Positions 29,402 through 58,952 of a stretch of 64,000 nucleotides of DNA are shown here, in pieces (positions within the stretch are counted from its first letter, which is position 1; each line of letters begins with the position of its first letter). The position numbers were made by a program, and so were the translations under genes. Under the pieces are notes generated by a model. That model searched no databases, was not told where the DNA came from, and saw nothing but the letters and a program-made list of their open reading frames with translations. The stretch comes from Hydrogenobacter hydrogenophilus (GTDB lineage: Bacteria; Aquificota; Aquificia; Aquificales; Aquificaceae). The stretch is taken from the NCBI RefSeq assembly GCF_900215655.1, contig NZ_OBEN01000006.1, positions 1 to 64,000 on the forward strand, written 5' to 3'.

Positions 29402-30349
29402 ATGTATGACCTTTCCATCACTCTTTTTGGGATAACCTTTAAAAACCCCGTTTGGACTGCGAGCGGGACCTTTGGCTACGGAATTGAAGCAATGGAGCTA
29501 TATGACATATCTAAGTTGGGTGCGGTGGTCACTAAGGGTATATCTTTAAAACCCAGAGAAGGTAATCCTCCGGAGAGGATCGCAGAGACACCTTGTGGAA
29601 TGTTAAACTCCATAGGACTTCAGAATCCTGGCGTGGAGGGGTTTTTGAAAAAGATATATCCAAAAATAAAGCATGTGGATACGCACTTTATAGCCAATGT
29701 TTTTGGAGAAACAGAGGAAGAGTATTTAGAGGTGTGTCTTGCCTTAGAATCTGCGGAAAAGATAGTGGCTTACGAGCTTAATGTTTCCTGTCCTAATGTG
29801 AAAAAGGGAGGATTGCTTTTTGGACACGATCTTGTGGTTCTTGGAAGGCTTGTGGAAAAAATAAAAGCAAAAGTGAAAAAACCTCTGATTGTAAAGCTAT
29901 CTCCAAATACAGGCAGTATAAAAGAATTTGCTAAGGTTTGTATAGATGCAGGTGCGGACGGCTTGGTTCTAATAAACACTCTGCTGGGAATGAAGATAGA
30001 TGTAAAGTCCCAGAAACCCGATCTTTCAACCTTTACAGGCGGGCTATCTGGTCCTGCCATACTGCCAATTGCGGTAAGAATGGTTTGGGAAGTTTTTTCT
30101 GAGTTTGGAAATACTGTCCCTATTGTAGGTGTAGGTGGCATCCACGATACTGATTCCGCACTACAACATATTTTGGCAGGTGCCAGTGCTGTACAAGTGG
30201 GAACTGCAAACTTTTCAGACCCTCTGTGCCCTCTGAGGATAATAGAAGGCATAAAAAGCTACATGGAAGAAAGGAAAGAAAGTTCCTTTAAAAACCTGAT
30301 AGGTAAGGCTCACAGAGTACCCCTTAGCATGGACAAATATCTCCTTTAA
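29402..30349 (+). CDS. pyrD: Dihydroorotate dehydrogenase, class 1
   Basis: 315 residues. It oxidises dihydroorotate to orotate in pyrimidine synthesis using [18 protein letters not shown] at the N-terminus, the catalytic-Cys motif [14 protein letters not shown] near residue 123 and [13 protein letters not shown] near residue 240 identify class 1 (probably 1B, which needs a PyrK partner not seen here). AGGAGGT precedes the ATG. Its last 26 bp overlap the tnpB frame on the other strand. Confidence 0.93.
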
Positions 30350-31815
30350 GGTTATTTATCCACACCTCGGGTTTGGAACTATCACCCAGAACCTTTTTAA
30401 AGTATGGGTTCTGAGTGAGTAAGCTCCGTGCCTTACCCCTGAGGCACTTAAACCTCTCAGAAGACAGGTTTTGTAAGAACCTCTCCACCTGCCATCTGAG
30501 GGCTTGCTCCATACGGCGTAAATGCAAGCTCCCAAGGAAGCGTTCCCTGAGATTTCTGCTTGCATTCACATCCGCATGGAGTTTGATGCCACAGCACTTA
30601 CACTCAAATGTGTCTCTATCCTTTCTGTTTTCTCTATCTACATACCCACACTGACAGCATGCTTGAGAACTGTAAGCCTGATTTACCTCTACTACTCTTA
30701 TGCCATACTCTTCTTGTAGTTCCCTTAGCTTCTTTCTTATCTCTCCAAGTCCAAACCTGATTAAAACTCTCTTGACGCTCTTAGGAAAGTTATTGATAAC
30801 CTCATTGAGAAACCCATTTAGGTTTTCTATCACTATCACCTCTGGACTGTAAAGCTTTATTATCCTGTTTAATAGCCTCCTTATTTCACTTTTGACAAAA
30901 GCACTAAGTCTTTCCTGTAGTCTCCTGTATCGCTTACTCTCTTTTGGCTTTATTCCCTGCCTTTGTAAGTTCCTCTGCAATTTGTCTATCTTCTCTGCAT
31001 ACTCTTTTACCTTCTGATAAAAACTCCTTCCAAAAAGGTCTCCTCTGTCTGTGGCAAAAAGTGAGTTCATGCCAAAGTCCAGTGCTACTACTCCATGCCT
31101 TTGCATTTCTCTTTGATGCACCTCTTTCACAAGCCTTAATTTTAGCTCTCCATCTTCCTCAACTATCTGAACTACTGGTGTTAGAACACCTTCTCTTTGA
31201 TGAAAGTAGTCATGAAGATTAATAGGTATCCATACTGGTTTTCCTTTCTCAAGAGTGGATATCTTTACCCACAGGTCATATGATCTTGCTTTTGTTGGTC
31301 TTTCTATCAAAGCACATTTGCTATCCAAAATGAGAGTGTTTTTTCTAAAGCTTGGCTTTTTGTATTTGCTAAGTAGGTGTTTGAAAATCTTTCTTGCCAA
31401 CAATCTCTCATATTCAGTTATTTCAAGTTCCTGATCTTTCCACTTGGCGGTTTGGCTTTTCACACAAAATATCTCCTGCCTGCTTGCAAGGTAAAGCAAA
31501 ACTTTCTTTGTCTTCTCTTCAAGTGTGGAATTCAACACAATATCCACAAAACTGTTTAAAAGGTTAGACACAAAGCTTTCTAAGGTAGGCACTACTAAGT
31601 GATACTGGGATGGTGTATTTGTACCTCTCTGAAAGCTTGCTTTGTATGTGCTTTATGTTTGCTTTTCTGTTGAAAGAGCCAGTCCTGAAAAAGACCTGCC
31701 ATTGATAGTGTTCTATGGCTTGGGCGGTCTGTTTAGCGGGTTTGAAGAGAGCCTTTATCTTTTCAACCTTTCCTTTGTTTGCGTAGTGTTTGACTTCAAT
31801 GGCTCTGTAGGGCAA
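30324..31815 (-). pseudogene. tnpB: IS605-family TnpB (RNA-guided nuclease) gene, frameshifted
   Basis: Two minus-strand frames make one TnpB. The first, 31564-31815 (TTG start after GGAGG), gives ~83 N-terminal residues (KALFKPAKQTAQAIEHYQW). The second, 30324-31592, gives 422 residues with the RuvC triad: Asp in VVALDFGMNSLF (172), Glu in VIVIENLNG (256) and Asp in LHADVNAS (341). A four-Cys zinc finger (C312, C315, C331, C334) lies before the last Asp. Reading the second frame upstream gives TPSQYHLVVPTLESF, which continues the protein, so a one-base shift near 31600-31625 broke the gene. No tnpA lies beside it. Confidence 0.85.
30387..30413 (-). other. Hairpin near the right end of the tnpB element (possible omega/reRNA part)
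   Basis: CAGAACC and GGTTCTG form a 7-bp stem around a 13-nt loop inside the 3' end of tnpB, close to the junction with pyrD. In IS605 elements the guide RNA scaffold comes from this region. That it is transcribed is inference. Confidence 0.4.
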
Positions 31816-49033: not shown

Positions 49034-49656
49034 AACTCCTCGTCCGCATCTATCTGTAGTAAATCGCTCCTTATGCGAAAGACTGAGTCCTGTATGGGTT
49101 GGGTGCTTACCTTTTGCACTTTCCAGATGGTCTTACCCTTCTGGTCTTCTATAAGAAGTGGTACGCCAAGCTTTTCTGACCAGCAAACGCTATGAGATCT
49201 TTGGGACTCTTTTATCAGATACCAATTGCAATAATAATTACCAAGACGGTAGGGCTTTCTCTTCAGAGCTTCTACGCTATAGGTCTTTTCAGGTGGTCGC
49301 CTCAATACGTGTGCCAAAGAGTACCAGTTGTAGAAAGCTCCCAAACGGTAAAGATTGGTTCTGTTTATCTTAACCACTATCGCTTTCTGTCTGTTTACCA
49401 CAAAGTACTGGTAGTCACCATCCTTAGTCTTGAAGGCATAAAGGTCCATCTTGTCATCCGTAGATCTTCTTAACCTTCTGTCCCCATCGCGCCAGTACTC
49501 AAGCCTGTGGCTTTTACCCTCTGCATCTGTGTAATGAACGATCATATGAAGGTACTTTACCGCGTGGGATACAGAAAAGGCTCTCTCCCAAGAAAGTGTA
49601 TTAGAAAAAGCCCACGCATAAAAGAGAAAAAAGAGGGAAAGAAGGCGCAGGATCAC
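49021..49656 (-). CDS. Exported protein of unknown function
   Basis: 211 residues. A signal peptide (LSLFFLFYAWAFS) precedes a beta-rich mature part with HMIVHYTDAEGKSHRLEYW and YFVVNRQKAIVVKINRTNLY. The alternating pattern suggests a LolA/LolB-like barrel, but I do not recognise the family. It overlaps the upstream phosphodiesterase gene by 4 bp, so the two are made together. Confidence 0.68.
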   Translation of the reverse strand: MILRLLSLFFLFYAWAFSNTLSWERAFSVSHAVKYLHMIVHYTDAEGKSHRLEYWRDGDRRLRRSTDDKMDLYAFKTKDGDYQYFVVNRQKAIVVKINRTNLYRLGAFYNWYSLAHVLRRPPEKTYSVEALKRKPYRLGNYYCNWYLIKESQRSHSVCWSEKLGVPLLIEDQKGKTIWKVQKVSTQPIQDSVFRIRSDLLQIDADEEFYPE

Positions 49657-51626
49657 TCCCTCACCCCCTTGGCAAAATCAAAGTAGGTGTAAGTCCTGCC
49701 ATTGTAAACTACTTTTTTGATCTGAAGCTTTACGTAGAAAGAGGATTTGGCATTGTCTATGTCTTTCCCGTCTGGGTCAGTGGGTAGTTTCATCTGAATA
49801 CCGCTTACCTTGTCAGAGTATATGTAGTCTATAGTAGGTCCAGATACAGCTTCGTTACTGTTGACAAGTGCCTCTACAAGAGGTCTGCCATCTGCATCTA
49901 GTAGGCTAATGCCCAGTATTCTGGCTACTGTAGGTGCTACATCCACATTGCCGGTTGGTAGCTTGTCTCTGAAACCTTTCTTAAAGTCAGGACCGTAGGC
50001 TATCAAAGTATTCCTCACGTCTATGGGGCTAAAGCTTCCGTGCATACCGCGCAGGTTAAACATACTCTCAAACTCTATGCCTCTAAAACCTTGTATCACT
50101 GCATTCTCGTCATAGTCATAGCTGACTATTATGTCTGGGTTGCGCTTTGCGGTATTTTCTAGTCTTACCATGCTCATGGGTAGAGTGCCCGGTATTTTGC
50201 CATAGCGATCATCCACGAATATGGCTCCAAACTCTTCCCTGCTTTGGAGGAATAAGACCACTTTTCTTACAAGGTCTGGGTTACGAGATGGCACATATAT
50301 GTACTCGCTTCCGCCGTTAGAAGCAATCACGATAGCATCTGGGGGTAGGTTTTGGGGTACTTTGTAGCTGGGTGTGGTGTACTTCTGACCCGGCTTACCG
50401 CATACGCTACCATCTGGATCTACCTGAGTTTGGTATACAGTAGTACCATCCGCCTTTATGCCGGACATCACTGGGTCATAGCTACATCCATTTCCATCAT
50501 AAGCCTTGAAACCTGCTCTGGTAAGCAGGTCCGCAAGCCTTACATCTCCAGATACAGAGTAGCCGTTGGGATCAGGAGCACCCACTTGAGCGTTGCCGAT
50601 AGACCTAAGAGGGAAAAGGTTTAGTGGTCCTGATACATTGCTGTGTCCATGGTCAGACACTATTATTATGTCTGTATTGTTGTCTATGCCAAGCTCTTTG
50701 AGCTTGTTAAGGAGCATCCCCAAGAGGTTGTCCATGCACCTCATTGCAGACCTGTAGTTAGGGTTGCCCACTCCGTAGGCGTGCTCGGTGCTGTCTGGAT
50801 CCCTAAACCATATGAGGGTTAGGTTTGGCTTCTTTTTTGGAAGTATGTAATCAAGGTAAACCTTCATCATGTATGTGTTTGCATCGCAGTAAGGAGAGCC
50901 CGATGTGTCTGTAGGGTCAGAGGTAATGCCATCGCTCAGGTTCTTTCTTGGCTTAAAGGCTGTTGGATCTCCGTTATTAGTAGAGAGAGTTATAGAACCC
51001 TGAGGGTAAGCTATTGGTGTTGTTTTAGGAAGTGGGTATCCTGCCTGCTGTAGTTCCTTTGCAAGATCAAGTGGATACACCATCTTTTCGTCGAGTATAA
51101 TACCACCTCTCTTGTAGTCCTGTATGTATGCGGAGCCAGACTTTCCTATAACCGCAGTCTTTAGCCCTGCCTCCTGAGCCTTCTGGAAAAGGGTAGCTAC
51201 CATTAAAAGCTGGTTGTTGTAGTAGGCATTAAGAGTATCCAGTATGGCGTAGTCCTCTGTGAACACAGGTTGGTTATAGTCCACAGGCTGGCCTGCAGAG
51301 TTGTTGCCCTTAGCGCCGGGTGCCCAAACAGTGTTTCCGTAAAAGCCTACCTTATCTGGAAAGCTACCAGTAGCAAAGCTGGATGCGTTTATCATTGTAA
51401 AGGTGGGGTACGTGGAGTGGTTATCCTCAAAGAACACGCCCTCTTGAGCCAGTTTGTAAAGGTTGGGCAAGTCTGTGGGGTTGATCGAGTCTGGGCGCAA
51501 ACCATCCCACACAAAGATTATCACATTTCTCTTTTGACCCTCGTAAGAAGTGCCACCGCCTCCACCGCACGATACCGCAAAGACAAGAAAAAAGACTGTT
51601 AGGAAAAACAGAAAACCTTTTCTCAT
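49653..51626 (-). CDS. Alkaline phosphatase superfamily lipoprotein (type I phosphodiesterase/pyrophosphatase-like)
   Basis: 657 residues. A lipoprotein signal ends at Cys in FAVSCGGGGG. The catalytic domain starts IIFVWDGLRPDSI near residue 37, has the nucleophile Thr in HSTYPTFTMINASSFATGSFP near residue 75, and metal ligands in RDPDSTEHAYG and IIVSDHGHSNVSG. It is a surface or periplasmic phosphohydrolase; the substrate is unknown. GGAGGAGGT lies upstream of the ATG. Confidence 0.85.
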   Translation of the reverse strand: MRKGFLFFLTVFFLVFAVSCGGGGGTSYEGQKRNVIIFVWDGLRPDSINPTDLPNLYKLAQEGVFFEDNHSTYPTFTMINASSFATGSFPDKVGFYGNTVWAPGAKGNNSAGQPVDYNQPVFTEDYAILDTLNAYYNNQLLMVATLFQKAQEAGLKTAVIGKSGSAYIQDYKRGGIILDEKMVYPLDLAKELQQAGYPLPKTTPIAYPQGSITLSTNNGDPTAFKPRKNLSDGITSDPTDTSGSPYCDANTYMMKVYLDYILPKKKPNLTLIWFRDPDSTEHAYGVGNPNYRSAMRCMDNLLGMLLNKLKELGIDNNTDIIIVSDHGHSNVSGPLNLFPLRSIGNAQVGAPDPNGYSVSGDVRLADLLTRAGFKAYDGNGCSYDPVMSGIKADGTTVYQTQVDPDGSVCGKPGQKYTTPSYKVPQNLPPDAIVIASNGGSEYIYVPSRNPDLVRKVVLFLQSREEFGAIFVDDRYGKIPGTLPMSMVRLENTAKRNPDIIVSYDYDENAVIQGFRGIEFESMFNLRGMHGSFSPIDVRNTLIAYGPDFKKGFRDKLPTGNVDVAPTVARILGISLLDADGRPLVEALVNSNEAVSGPTIDYIYSDKVSGIQMKLPTDPDGKDIDNAKSSFYVKLQIKKVVYNGRTYTYFDFAKGVRE

Positions 51627-51833
51627 CTTTGTACCTCCTCCGCCTGTGTTATTTTAGGTACTGTATGTTAAAAAATCGTTAATGGTCAGAGTAAGAGCTT
51701 GGGCCTGTATTCCTGAGAACTCGTATACCGCAATGTATTTGTTTATCCCAAGGAGTATATTTCTTACTTAAAGACACAGTTTGCCATGGCATCCTTTGCA
51801 CACGCAGAGGCAATATAAGAGTTTCAGCTTAGA

Positions 51834-52169
51834 TTAACCCTGTATGGTATACTTGACACTCTGGTTTACGTAAGTATATACCGCGGTGTAGTCAGTAGCG
51901 GTGCTGAATGCTGTTGATACATTAACTAACTTGTTGGAGGTGTATCGCTTGAGTTTTCTGTACACTATGCTACCATTGTCTAACATACAACCTCTGGCTA
52001 TAGTTTCTGCGTAGGAGCTTACTTTGGCTTTCCTCTGGTACTTTAGGTACTAAGGTATGATCAGGTATGCCAGTATGGCTATGATGGCAATAACAATGAG
52101 TAGATCAGTGAGAGTGAAACCTTTGAGCCGTTCATCCTTGCAGAATAAATCAAGCACATAACTCAACAT
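51834..52169 (-). pseudogene. Type IV pilin-like gene interrupted by an in-frame TAG
   Basis: Minus strand, 111 codons plus stop. A prepilin leader ends at Gly17, followed by the N-methylation helix FTLTDLLIVIAIIAILAYL, then Ile-Ile-Pro and a TAG at codon 40 (52050-52052). The same frame continues YLKYQRKAKVSSYAETIARG and on to a TAA at 51834-51836. Pilins usually have Gln at the broken position (IPQY), so one CAG-to-TAG change explains it. Position 5 of the mature protein is Asp instead of the usual Glu. No intact pilus gene is nearby. Confidence 0.8.
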
Positions 52170-52599: not shown

Positions 52600-54414
52600 C
52601 TATTGTTCTTCTTGAAACTCTATATTTTCCTGTATTAAGGTTTCCAGTATATTGTCATACTCTGATTTTTCAATGGTTCCATCATATGCTCTTATTTTTA
52701 TCTCTACAGTATTAAATTTTTTGCTTAACAAAGTTATAATCCTTGCCAAAGTTGACGCTTTTCCATGTTGAATCCAGACATGAAGCTTTACTTCATTTTT
52801 CCCAAATCTCAATTCATTCTCTTTATCCTGTTCTTCCAAAGTTTGCACTTGTAAGGTTTCCGCTCCTTGTTTTAGTTCAGTTTGTGTCGTAATGTCTATG
52901 TTTTGAGACGTGTATGTAAGGACTTCCTCTTGGTATTTTTCTGCCTTTTCTTCTTTACAAAGTTCTGACTTTATAATCACTTCTCCTTCACTTAAGGATA
53001 CTGTAGGTATTTCATTTATTTTCTTACATACAGGTTTTTCACCTTCAAGATATCCAAAACCAAACAGTCCCCTCTCAACACCCTCTTTTATTCCCTCAAT
53101 GAAACCTTCTTTTGAAATCACTCTCAATTCACCAGGCGTTTTTAGTAGAGCATCGTAGAGCTTTTTTATCTCCAGAAAGTCCCTCTCACTAAGGTATTTA
53201 TCTTTTATCACTTTTGAAGATATCTTCTCAAGTATTTCTCCCTGCCCTCTTAGAAAATTGTAAATTTCCTCGTCAAGCTTAGATTCACCCAAGGTAGGAA
53301 TGCCCATATCAAAATCTTTAAAGCCATCTTTGTTAGGAAGGAATAACTTACTATAGTACTTTCTTATCTCTTCATACTCTCTACTCTCTTGCTGTCTTAG
53401 CCTACTTTCCACTTCCTTTTTTTGGTTTTCTGTTAACTGTAATCTTTCGTCTTGCTTTATGCTTCTAAGAGCGATGAGCTTTCTTATGTAGCTGTATAAA
53501 TTATCTTTATTGTTGTCATCTACGCACAAAAATATCAGTGTGTTCCTATAAATCCTTGGAGTCTCTCCGCAGTTTTCTAAGAAGTCCTTATCGGGTTTGT
53601 CTTTGTTAAGTATTACAAGCTTTAGTTCTTCATTGTGCGGAATGTCCTTAGAGAATTTGGGATGAAGATAAACTTTGATCTTTGGATTTTTTGATATATG
53701 CCTTCGCAGAATGTTTTGTTCCTCTTGAACTATTTGGTTTTCGGATATGTTCTCTTCTTTTAAGAGTAAAATCCTGTTGAGGTTTGGTTGGTTTTGGAAT
53801 CTAAGATCATCGTCGGAGACGTAAAATAGTTGCCTTTTGAGTTCGTGCAGTGTGGTGTCTATGATGGCACTTTGGAAAGATGGTTCTGCGGTGTAGAGCT
53901 TTAGCTCTTTTAGGCTTATGCTCCTTGTACCTCTTCCAGAAAAAGAGGTCATGAATATGGTGGTGCTAACAACTGTACCAAGCCTATAGGGTTTGTAAGA
54001 GGATTGAAGGGATTCATCAACCTTTTTAGCTCCAGAATTTGGTGAGGTTATGTCTTGGGCTATTATACTGTCCCATTCAGAGCCAATGTGTGTTATAAGC
54101 TCACGCCTTAGCTCCTCATTGCCTAAGTTAAAGTCTCCAAGCCTAATAAAGGGTATTTTTTCATTGATCAAGTCATGTATGACTATGGATAGAATCCTCA
54201 GAGCTCCCCTTGTTCTTTGGAAAGTAGGGAAAGACCCCCACCTTTTATAAAGGATATCTATTACCTCGGGTTTAAAAGGGTAGCTTCTTAGAAATCTTTC
54301 TCTGTAATCTTGTACTTCGTCTTTAGAGAGGAGTCCCTCTCTTAGGGCGTAATTGACAAATTCATTAACCACTTTATTAGCTTCTTTTTCATCCTTTTTC
54401 ATCAATGTACTCAA
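52600..54414 (-). pseudogene. DUF499 ATPase, C-terminal fragment (frameshifted from the gene at 54389-55168)
   Basis: 604 residues in a frame shifted by one base from the upstream fragment. KKDEKEANKVVNEFVNYALR directly continues the protein that ends EYIDEKG in the upstream frame, and SYPFKPEVIDILYKRWG plus FQRTRGALRILS are typical of the AAA+ DUF499 (COG1483) family. The C-terminus has the LHVWIQHGKASTLA domain. With the upstream part it would make a protein of ~860 residues. It could still be translated separately. Confidence 0.78.
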
Positions 54415-55168
54415 AAAGTCTTTTTCTTATCACACTTTCTATCTCGTCATCTTCTACAGGGCTATGGGACTTTTCTACTCTGCCAACTATCTTTTGTAGC
54501 TGATGGAAGGCCCTTTCTGCGTTTTCGTCAAAGTGCTCCAAAGAGCTAGATGGAAGTGTAAGAACAAGCAAAGCGTTTCCTATCGTTGCTACCGCACCAG
54601 TGAGTTCCTGAATAAAGGCAAGGGTTTGAGAGCCAAGGTTAGAATCACCCACCTTTATACCAGATGCCTTGGTTATGTGTTCAAGAAGCTCGTCTATGAG
54701 TATAAGCACAGGAGCGTTTTGGTTCAGAAGCTTTCCAAGAGCGTCCTTTCCGGGTGCTGTGTCTCCTTTTGTAAGCTCTACCTTTCCCGTAAGCTGTCTT
54801 TCAAGATCTTCCCAAAGCCTAGTGTCTGCGGTTAGGGCTGTTCCATCTAAGACTGCAACCTTTGCGTTCCACTCTTTGGATTTGTGATAGAGTGCTATTA
54901 GTGTGTGAGTTTTTCCGCCACCAAAGGGTGTTTGAAGCTGGATCACCGCATCGCCACCCATACCCTTCAGTCTTGATTCCGCTAAGTTAAGTATGTGCTT
55001 TAAGCCTCTGGTGATGTATGTCTTTTGGACAAAGAGATCAGGGTCCTGATAGTCAGGTTTTGCAGTGCCCTTTGCTACCTGCCAAAGGTCTGCTGCAAAA
55101 ACGTCCATAGTGAGTCTTCCCTGTGCTACATCATCGTGGGGTATGGCGATGCTTGCAAAAGGTTTCAT
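54389..55168 (-). pseudogene. DUF499 AAA+ ATPase, N-terminal fragment
   Basis: 259 residues. Walker A is QTPFGGGKTHTLIALYHKS near residue 80 and Walker B is PVLILIDELLEHITKASG near residue 152, both as in the DUF499 family. The frame ends at a TGA just after a run of five A near 54397. Removing one A restores EYIDEKDEKEAN and joins it to the downstream fragment. It abuts the DUF1156 methylase remnant. Confidence 0.78.
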
Positions 55169-56370
55169 TAGAATAACCTCCCTTGAGTATCTCTCATGTC
55201 ATCTTTTAATTTTTCTTTCCCAATTAAAAATCCGTCAAGTAGTTTTTTCTCTTTGCTGTCGTTGGGAAGCGTTTCTGATATGGCTTGAGCTACCCTATAA
55301 AAAGATTCCTTTAGACCAAACCCGGTTTCTTTTAAAACTCTTTTCATCTCATCTTTTTTCCCTTCCTTCCACAAAAGTAAAACTTTATGAAGTACATCTA
55401 TCATATCCTCCGCATCTTTGAGCTCTTCAAGCTTTCTTTCGTGAGGTCCAAGAATTGTTATGAGCTCCTTTTCCTTTCTGATAAATCCTTTACCCCACTC
55501 TTTTTCAAGATTTACACCCGCTGATTGGGCAAGCTTTCTTGCATCATCGAATTGGACTTTTTCCTCTCCATAAGTCCAACGCCAAAGAATGTAGAACCTT
55601 GTAAGAGAAGACAGCTCTCCTGCTATGCTACCATCGTGGAGAATCTGCTTTAGGGCATGCTCTGTAACAAGCTCTCTCACATATTCAAGAAGTTCGCTTG
55701 TGGTGATCTCTCTTCCTTCGTAGTCCATAATTTTTTTGTATCTTCCAAATATCTCAATGGAAGCACCAATAGCAGATATAAAGTAGTCTGCACCTGCGAT
55801 GCCTTCTTTCCAGAGATTCTCAAGTTTTTCTGTGATGTGGTTCTTTATTTCCTCTTTTACTTCGTTTAGCCATCCTATCTCTTCTCTTTCCATTTTCCTG
55901 CAGACAAAGTAGATGGAAGAGGAAAGCGCAGCGGACTCTTTAGCCCTTAATCTTGACTTCATCTCTGTATCTATGGGCCAAGATGCTGTGATAACTAATC
56001 CAGACTCAAGCAGTGAGTTAATCATGGTTTCCCAACCTGTAGTGGATTTGTGAGTATAGACTATAATAGCTATACCGTTGGGTTTTAAAACTCTGCGTAT
56101 CTCCTTAAAGGCTTTCTTGAGCATGGATTCAAAAAACTCTTTTGCTTTCTGCGAATCACCGTGTCTGACAGGGTTTGAAACAATTTCTTTAGTTTTTGGA
56201 ACAAGTGGCGTTATAAAAAGTTCTGGATATAAATCTCCTATACTTCTCTTGAGCCATACATAAAAGAAATCAGAAAGTTCGGCGTAGTTTATATTGTCGT
56301 AATAGGGCGGATCTGTAAAAACTGCATCAAAGTAGTTATCTGGATAAGGTACTTGTAGCGCTGAGTTTTT
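55168..56370 (-). pseudogene. DUF1156-type adenine DNA methylase, C-terminal part (5' end deleted)
   Basis: The frame is open from a TGA at 56371-56373 to 55168 (400 codons), with the first in-frame ATG at 56124. Before that ATG it encodes methylase motif IV in DNYFDAVFTDPPYYDNINYA and the following FFYVWLKRSIGDLYPELF, so the true protein began far upstream. The later part (EIRRVLKPNGIAIIVYTHKS, EITTSELLEYVRELVTEHAL) matches the DUF1156 (COG1743) family. The N-terminal portion with SAM motif I is missing. Confidence 0.78.
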
Positions 56371-57080
56371 TCAACTTTATCTCCATATTTGTATGCAGAC
56401 ATCTTGTGGGCTTCATCAACTATAGTTAGGTCCCAGTGCACTGAGCTTAAACTCCGCAAAATATCATCCTGCTTGGCAAAATCTATAGAAGTGATAACCT
56501 GGTTATTTTTTTCCCAAGGATTTTCTCCATAATGAGCGTTAAAAGTGTTTCTATCAAGGACTACAAATGTTTCGTTAAACTTCTCCTTTAATTCCCTTCT
56601 CCATTGGTCTTTTAGATGCCCTGGTACAACTATGAGCACCCTTCTAACCAACCCTCTTAGCTTTAACTCCTTTATTATCAGCCCTGCCATAATGGTTTTT
56701 CCAGCACCAGGATCGTCCGCTATAAGAAACCTAATGTGAGGTTGCTTTAGAATATAGCCATACACTGCCTCTATTTGAAAGGGAAGAGGGTCTATCTTTG
56801 AGACATTCACCGCAAGTAAGGGATCAAACAAAGATGCGTATCTAAAACGCATTGCTTCAATCACAAGAAACACTTCTTGTGGGTCTGCAGAAAGGTCTAT
56901 ATCCGTGTTAATGACCTCTAAACCGCTAAGCTCTTCTATTTTAAACAGATGGTCTGTGCTTTTTTCCGTGTGAATGGTTCTAACTAACAACCGAATATGA
57001 TCGCCTCTTTTCTCCACCTTTTCAACCTTAACAGGTTCAGGCCAAAAATCTCCTTTTATTATGTAGCCTTCTTTAATCAC
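56289..57080 (-). pseudogene. SNF2-family helicase, N-terminal part (3' end deleted)
   Basis: 263 residues. The frame begins at a GTG after GAGGAG. Motif I is IADDPGAGKTIMAGLI near residue 121, motif Ia VLIVVPGHLKDQW near 148 and motif II TIVDEAHKMSAY near 220. Helicase-like sequence stops at KVEKTQRYK (residue ~243). The last 20 residues are the methylase DNA read out of frame. Helicase motifs III-VI are missing. Confidence 0.78.
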
Positions 57081-57314: not shown

Positions 57315-58952
57315 TTAGTCAAGCTCTGGCATTTCAGGTGTTGGTGCTTTTTCCTTCTTCTCCTCGGGTATTTCTGCCACCAAGGCTTCTGCTGTCAGCA
57401 TGGTGCCTGCAACGGACGCTGCGTTTTGTATGGCTACCCTTACCACCTTGGTGGGGTCTATGATACCAGCTTCAACCATATCTTTGTACTCTCCAGATGC
57501 TGCGTCAAATCCCCAGTTTTTACCTTTTTCTTTTCCAAGCTGGAGAACCTTTTCAAGCACCACATAACCTTCAAATCCTGCATTGGTAGCTATTTGTCTA
57601 ACAGGTGTTCTGCAAGCTTTCTTTATTATGTCTATACCCAACTGTTGGTCTGGATTATCTACCTTAAGATTATCCAAGGCTTCGGAAGCTCTTACTAACG
57701 CTACACCACCGCCGGGAACTATGCCTTCCTCAACAGCTGCTTTTGTAGCGTGTACAGCGTCCTCAACCCTTGCTTTCTTTTCTTTAAGCTCAGCTTCTGT
57801 AGCGGCGCCCACTCTTATTATAGCAACTCCACCAGAGAGCTTTGCGAGTCTTTCTTGAAGCTTTTCTCTATCGTAATCTGATGTAGTTTCAAGTATCTGT
57901 TTCTTGATCTGTTCTATCCTTGCCTGTATGGCTTCCTTAGAACCTTTACCACCCACTATGGTGGTGTTATCCTTGTCCACTATCACCTTATCCGCTCTTC
58001 CGAGCATATCAAGGGTCACGCTTTCAAGTTTTATACCAAGCTCTTCAGTTATAGCGGTACCACCTGTAAGAATGGCTATATCTTGCAGATAATCCTTCCT
58101 TCTTTGGCCAAAACCAGGAGCCTTCACAGCGCAAGCTCTTATAACACCCTTTATATGGTTTACCACTAATGTTGCCAGAGCTTCAGCTTCAACGTCTTCC
58201 GCTATGACGAGTAGAGGTTTGCCTGCCCTTACTACTTGTTCAAGTATGGGGAGTAGGTCTTTTACATTGGATATCTTCTTTTCGTATATGAGTATGTAGG
58301 GTTCTTCAAGTACAGCTTCCATTTTGTCAGGATTTGTTATAAAGTAAGGTGATAGGTATCCCCTATCAAACTGCATACCTTGAACTGTTTCAAGGGTCGT
58401 TTCTGCAGACTTGGATTCTTCAACGGTTATAACTCCGTCCTTTCCTACAGCTTCCATGGCATCTGCTATGATCTTGCCTATGTTTGTATCGTTATTGGCA
58501 GATATGGTTGCTACTTGCTCTATCTCTTTCCTGCCAGATACGGGAATAGAGAGCTTCTTTATCTCGTCTACGACCACTTGAACCGCTTTGTCTATTCCCC
58601 TTTTGAGGTCCATGGGATTTGCGCCTGATGCTATTGCTTTTAGTCCTTCGTTGAATATGGCTTGAGCAAGGACAGTTGCGGTGGTAGTTCCATCACCAGC
58701 CACATCAGAAGTCTTAGAAGCAACTTCTTTTACCAACTGAGCACCCATGTTTTCATAGGGATCCTTTAGCTCTATCTCTTTAGCTACTGTAACACCGTCT
58801 TTGGTGACAACGGGAGTACCCCACTTTTTCTCTATGATCACCTCTCTACCCCTTGGACCCAGGGTGACCTTAACCGCGTTAGCAAGCTTATCAACGCCAG
58901 ATTTGAGCCTTGCTCTTGCTTCTTCTCCATAAATAACCTTCTTTGCTGCCAT
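57315..58952 (-). CDS. groEL: Chaperonin GroEL
   Basis: 545 residues. The 60-kDa ring chaperonin subunit. [18 protein letters not shown] near residue 28, ATP-binding [16 protein letters not shown] near residue 85, the signature [18 protein letters not shown] near residue 402, and [12 protein letters not shown] near residue 475 are intact. The C-terminus ends acidic and proline-rich ([16 protein letters not shown]) instead of the common Gly-Gly-Met repeats. It lies 26 bp after groES. Confidence 0.97.

Follow-up and report, generated by a model that had tools for sequence, protein, structure and literature searches.

The described systems that come closest to the locus analyzed here are the intact type IV pilin genes of Hydrogenobacter itself, bacterial pseudogenes derived from duplicated or imported genes, and the pilS cassettes of Neisseria. 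In the present genome two adjacent intact pilin genes lie on the minus strand of contig C7, at 29925-30362 and 29486-29875 (or slightly longer), with products of 146 and 137 amino acids, and DNA of the same pilin pair is present in four other genomes of the genus (G001-G004). A functional type IV pilin gene is characterized by an intact prepilin frame, a leader, the Glu5 of the N-terminal helix and a C-terminal domain. The pilS cassettes, as presented in two papers (PMC4023411, PMC3899283), are partial, unexpressed pilin copies in a genome that also holds the expressed gene.

The window, by which is meant the whole stretch of 64,000 nucleotides of Hydrogenobacter hydrogenophilus DNA that was analyzed, contains a locus which, judged from its sequence, is almost certainly what is left, after partial deletion and loss of function, of an operon of two type IV pilin genes, paralogous to the intact pair at C7:29486-30362. 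The gene order, the N-terminal helix, the C-terminal block and the intergenic sequence after gene 1 are those of the intact Hydrogenobacter pair, from which the window copy differs in that it is broken and shorter and lacks the conserved upstream region. With bacterial pseudogenes of duplicated or imported genes it has in common that an intact homologous pair exists in its own genome, that it carries several nonsense changes, indels and deletions, and that C>T and G>A changes are in excess; nothing notable sets it apart from them. The likeness to the pilS cassettes is that a partial copy, known in the window from sequence and apparently unexpressed, accompanies an expressed gene; unlike the cassettes, the window copy belongs to no array, is not linked to the expressed gene and has lost the frame of its variable part. 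In the literature library searched, no paper joined Hydrogenobacter, type IV pili and pseudogene.

The locus, its neighbours and the intact pair

The reading frame from which the analysis started, the two gene remnants and the genes on either side of them are as follows.

51834-52169, minus strand: reported frame, from ATG at 52169 to TAA at 51836-51834, with TAG at 52052-52050 inside it (translation)
51834-52159, minus strand: pilin gene 1 remnant (blastn to C7, 87% over 215 bp and 86% over 87 bp; alignment)
51700-51818, minus strand: pilin gene 2 remnant, IASACAKDAMANCV ... GINKYIAVYEFS (blastn to C7 gene 2, colinear)
49653-51626, minus strand: type I phosphodiesterase gene, intact, downstream neighbour (Pfam PF01663, E 5e-40)
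52600-57080, minus strand: broken Hma-like (helicase-methylase-ATPase) defence genes, upstream neighbour (PADLOC, partial matches to HmaC, HmaB and HmaA)

The pilin N-terminal helix GFTLTDLLIVIAIIAILAYLIIP is read in the minus-strand frame opened by the ATG at 52169. Its match to the Pfam N_methyl model is borderline, scoring 21.0 bits, or 21.3 with its neighbours, against a cut-off of 21.2, and twelve stronger matches to this family lie elsewhere in the genome. Against the intact locus on C7 blastn gives E=2e-72 over 215 bp, with three more colinear pieces, and on this comparison the resemblance of the locus to pilins is far above chance. Pieces of both C7 genes follow one another in the window in unchanged order and span about 450 bp, as compared with about 900 bp in the intact pair.

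The neighbouring defence genes are also in ruins, in that HmaC is split over two overlapping open reading frames (52600-54414 and 54389-55168), HmaB is present as a C-terminal piece (55168-56124) and HmaA as an N-terminal piece (56289-57080), according to PADLOC; a GroEL-like gene follows at 57315-58952. Because the pilin remnant and the ruined Hma-like genes both fall between the phosphodiesterase gene and the GroEL-like gene, this stretch is a cluster of decayed genes. Among relatives the phosphodiesterase gene was found in just two of the genomes searched (G002 and G003), with no pilin remnant detected next to it; synteny in G002 covers one part of the region, the contig ending inside the gene.

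Lesions in the two gene remnants

The original prediction was that one in-frame TAG had killed or interrupted a type IV pilin gene whose leader, helix and downstream sequence otherwise share a single frame. That the gene is dead is borne out by its homology to the intact C7 pair and by its many lesions; the single cause is not, since, set against the intact genes, the copy has at least three codons turned into stops, gene 1 carries two single-base indels, and three large deletions are present besides. Those lesions that were placed in gene 1 are listed below.

52121-52126 (place approximate), minus strand: 1-nt deletion at the junction of leader and helix, CTCAAAGG as against CTCAAGGGG in C7
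52050-52052, minus strand: CAG to TAG at Gln 42 of the C7 pilin, with C in all four outgroup genomes
51976-51977, minus strand: 1-nt insertion, frameshift near codon 64 (alignment)
51965-51967, minus strand: TGG (Trp) to TAG in the ancestral frame past the insertion (alignment, tblastn, translation)
51926-51928, minus strand: CAG (Gln) to TAG in the ancestral frame past the insertion (frame -3 PPTS*LM as against PPTTQLAN, aligned by eye)
51903-51931, minus strand: net deletion of about 100 nt in the variable region (28 nt in the window as against 128 nt in C7 between two conserved blocks)

Clear DNA homology of the gene 1 remnant to C7 starts at about 52144, and the leader is shortened relative to that of C7. 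The ancestral leader, SARMNSSRG in C7, corresponds to CLIYSARMNGSK in the window and is read there as SARMNGSK in frame -3, off the frame of the helix; the alignment makes ATG 52159, in a frame other than the reported one, the most likely ancestral start. The reported start and leader are an accidental reading, because the shortened leader and the 1-nt deletion have put the ancestral leader out of the helix frame.

Codon 40 of the reported frame is the TAG at 52052-52050; the intact relatives read CAG there, and this part of the prediction is confirmed. Beyond it 71 codons are open up to the TAA at 51836-51834, but they are not of one kind: 24 are homologous to the intact gene, about 20 are out of frame, and the remainder are the homologous end. 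After the insertion at about 51977 the variable region reads on in the other frame as MVA*CTENSSDTPPTS*, and the net deletion then cancels the insertion (+1-100=-99), with the result that the last 22-27 or so codons, TATDYTAVYTYVNQSVKYTIQG, regain the reported frame. Used as tblastn queries, the intact proteins recover the same division, the helix and the end in frame -2, and SARMNGSK together with MVA*CTENSSDTPPTS in frame -3. The openness of the 71 codons is thus due to two compensating indels, the 1-nt insertion and the net deletion of about 100 nt, and the frame after the TAG, as these alignments read it, is not a preserved pilin frame. The TAG, the helix and the 71 open codons of the predicted single frame therefore stand, while its leader and its middle stretch are off frame; likewise the downstream similarity to pilins on which the prediction had been made to depend is missing from about codon 65 to the mid-80s and present in codons 41-64 and at the end. 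Compensating indels can in this way mimic a preserved frame downstream of a stop.

Homology continues past 51834 to about 51700 in remnants of a second pilin gene, which match C7 gene 2 by blastn in one stretch of 53 bp (79%, E 3e-8) and another of 62 bp (73%, E 6e-4). Its first 50 or so codons and an internal block are gone, and alignment to C7 indicates that about 150 nt are missing from the interval that runs from the end of gene 1 to the middle of gene 2. The assignment to gene 2 is based on pairwise alignments; the multiple alignment misplaced the remnant into unrelated columns, and the overall identities to the window remnant that it yields are too low for that reason.

Compared with the features of a functional pilin, the window copy has its leader off frame, a stop inside the gene, an Asp in place of the helix Glu5 of its intact relatives, and a C-terminal domain that has been deleted, with both C-terminal cysteines lost, each replaced by Tyr.

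Selection, decay and alternative explanations

Gene 1 differs from C7 at 36 of 280 aligned bases. Twenty changes could be polarised to the window copy, and 12 of these are C>T or G>A. Half of the 20 are non-synonymous, where about 73% would be expected if they were neutral (binomial P about 0.03), and half are synonymous as compared with about 27% under neutral decay alone; up to codon 64 the non-synonymous count is 9 of 20 (P about 0.008). Since synonymous changes make up about half of the total, selection probably acted on the copy before its death. These substitution counts suggest a period of constraint preceding decay, in which case the copy was probably not dead from birth. The decay is not very recent.

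The lesions bear directly on the suggestion that the mutation was recent or that the TAG is read through, which does not survive them. If the TAG were read through, or decoded as an amino acid, one full pilin would result, and the 71 stop-free codons appear to speak for this. Past codon 64, however, the sequence leaves the ancestral frame until the compensating deletion, so that what lies downstream is not conserved in the frame of the helix, and a protein made in this way would be missing the variable domain with its cysteines. TAG is moreover an ordinary stop, terminating 12 of the 49 long open reading frames of the window, and no tRNA gene of any kind was found in the window. With no continuous pilin frame after an ordinary stop codon, read-through or suppression is rejected, and its probability is as good as nil. 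Negligible probability also attaches to an assembly or base-call error in an otherwise intact second pilin operon. Sequencing errors can produce single-base indels, and the indels reported here are read from the assembly, but errors cannot explain all of the three deletions of about 100-150 nt, the density of differences from C7 and the radical changes at conserved sites, and the adjoining phosphodiesterase gene is intact; a single-base error is rejected in view of the multiple large lesions.

The locus is best explained as a decayed second operon copy. Such a copy would have split from the C7 copy by a duplication of its own or by the import of a near allele, and was probably functional for a time after the split. 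Nonsense changes, small indels and large deletions, in an order that can be put forward only provisionally, would then have destroyed it, with C>T and G>A changes in excess, as is usual. On this account the window locus would yield no pilin and have no present role, and pilin of this type would be supplied by the C7 operon. What had been taken for a single stop, perhaps read through, is corrected to an ordinary pseudogene with multiple lesions and an intact paralogue, which by itself is of little importance.

A second pilin fragment and the surroundings of the intact pair

A further piece of pilin DNA, 87 bp long and matching the pilin variable region at 95%, lies at C1:329218-329304. It sits in an insertion of about 187 bp (C1 about 329192-329379), which has an amidohydrolase gene on one side and a small conserved gene on the other. 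This insertion is absent from four relatives, in which the flanks almost meet (with 2 nt between them in G002); the remaining part of the insertion matches nothing else in the genome. Over the variable region the fragment, the window copy and C7 are mutually about 89-91% identical, as compared with 60-70% to relatives, and C7 differs from the fragment and the window copy in small details that these two have in common, such as AACTCAAGCGAT as against AACGCAAGCGGT. Both may come from an older version of the pilin of this lineage.

The existence of two partial copies, called unexpressed from their sequence and each covering part of the variable region, is what would be seen if they were silent cassettes donating to the expressed pilin by gene conversion, as pilS does in Neisseria. 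A pilS-like system consists of an array of in-frame variable segments sharing flanks with the expressed gene, whereas here there are two isolated scraps, neither arrayed nor linked to that gene; the window segment is out of frame, and a gene that received it, with its stops, its frameshift and its deletion of about 100 nt, would be destroyed. In relatives no such remnants were detected at the search sensitivity used. For want of an array, and given the broken donor segment, a silent cassette is judged very improbable. A broader reading, in which both pieces would be leftovers of pilin-diversifying recombination that moved parts of older alleles round the genome and left them able to exchange with the expressed gene, is also very unlikely, if a shade less so. 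The two dispersed remnants are a hint that pilin alleles have turned over in these thermophiles in the past.

In several genomes of the genus the intact pilin gene has on its 5' side a repeated TTCGTGAAG motif, possibly a regulatory site, which the window copy lacks; short matches to the motif are found elsewhere in G004 and G009. Upstream of the intact C7 pilins (C7 about 30443-31153) three consecutive open reading frames of 75-83 amino acids encode tandem copies of a single small protein, which has a membrane-like N-terminus, coiled-coil-like repeats and the ending RQLLYKVFE(V/I)PHKE.
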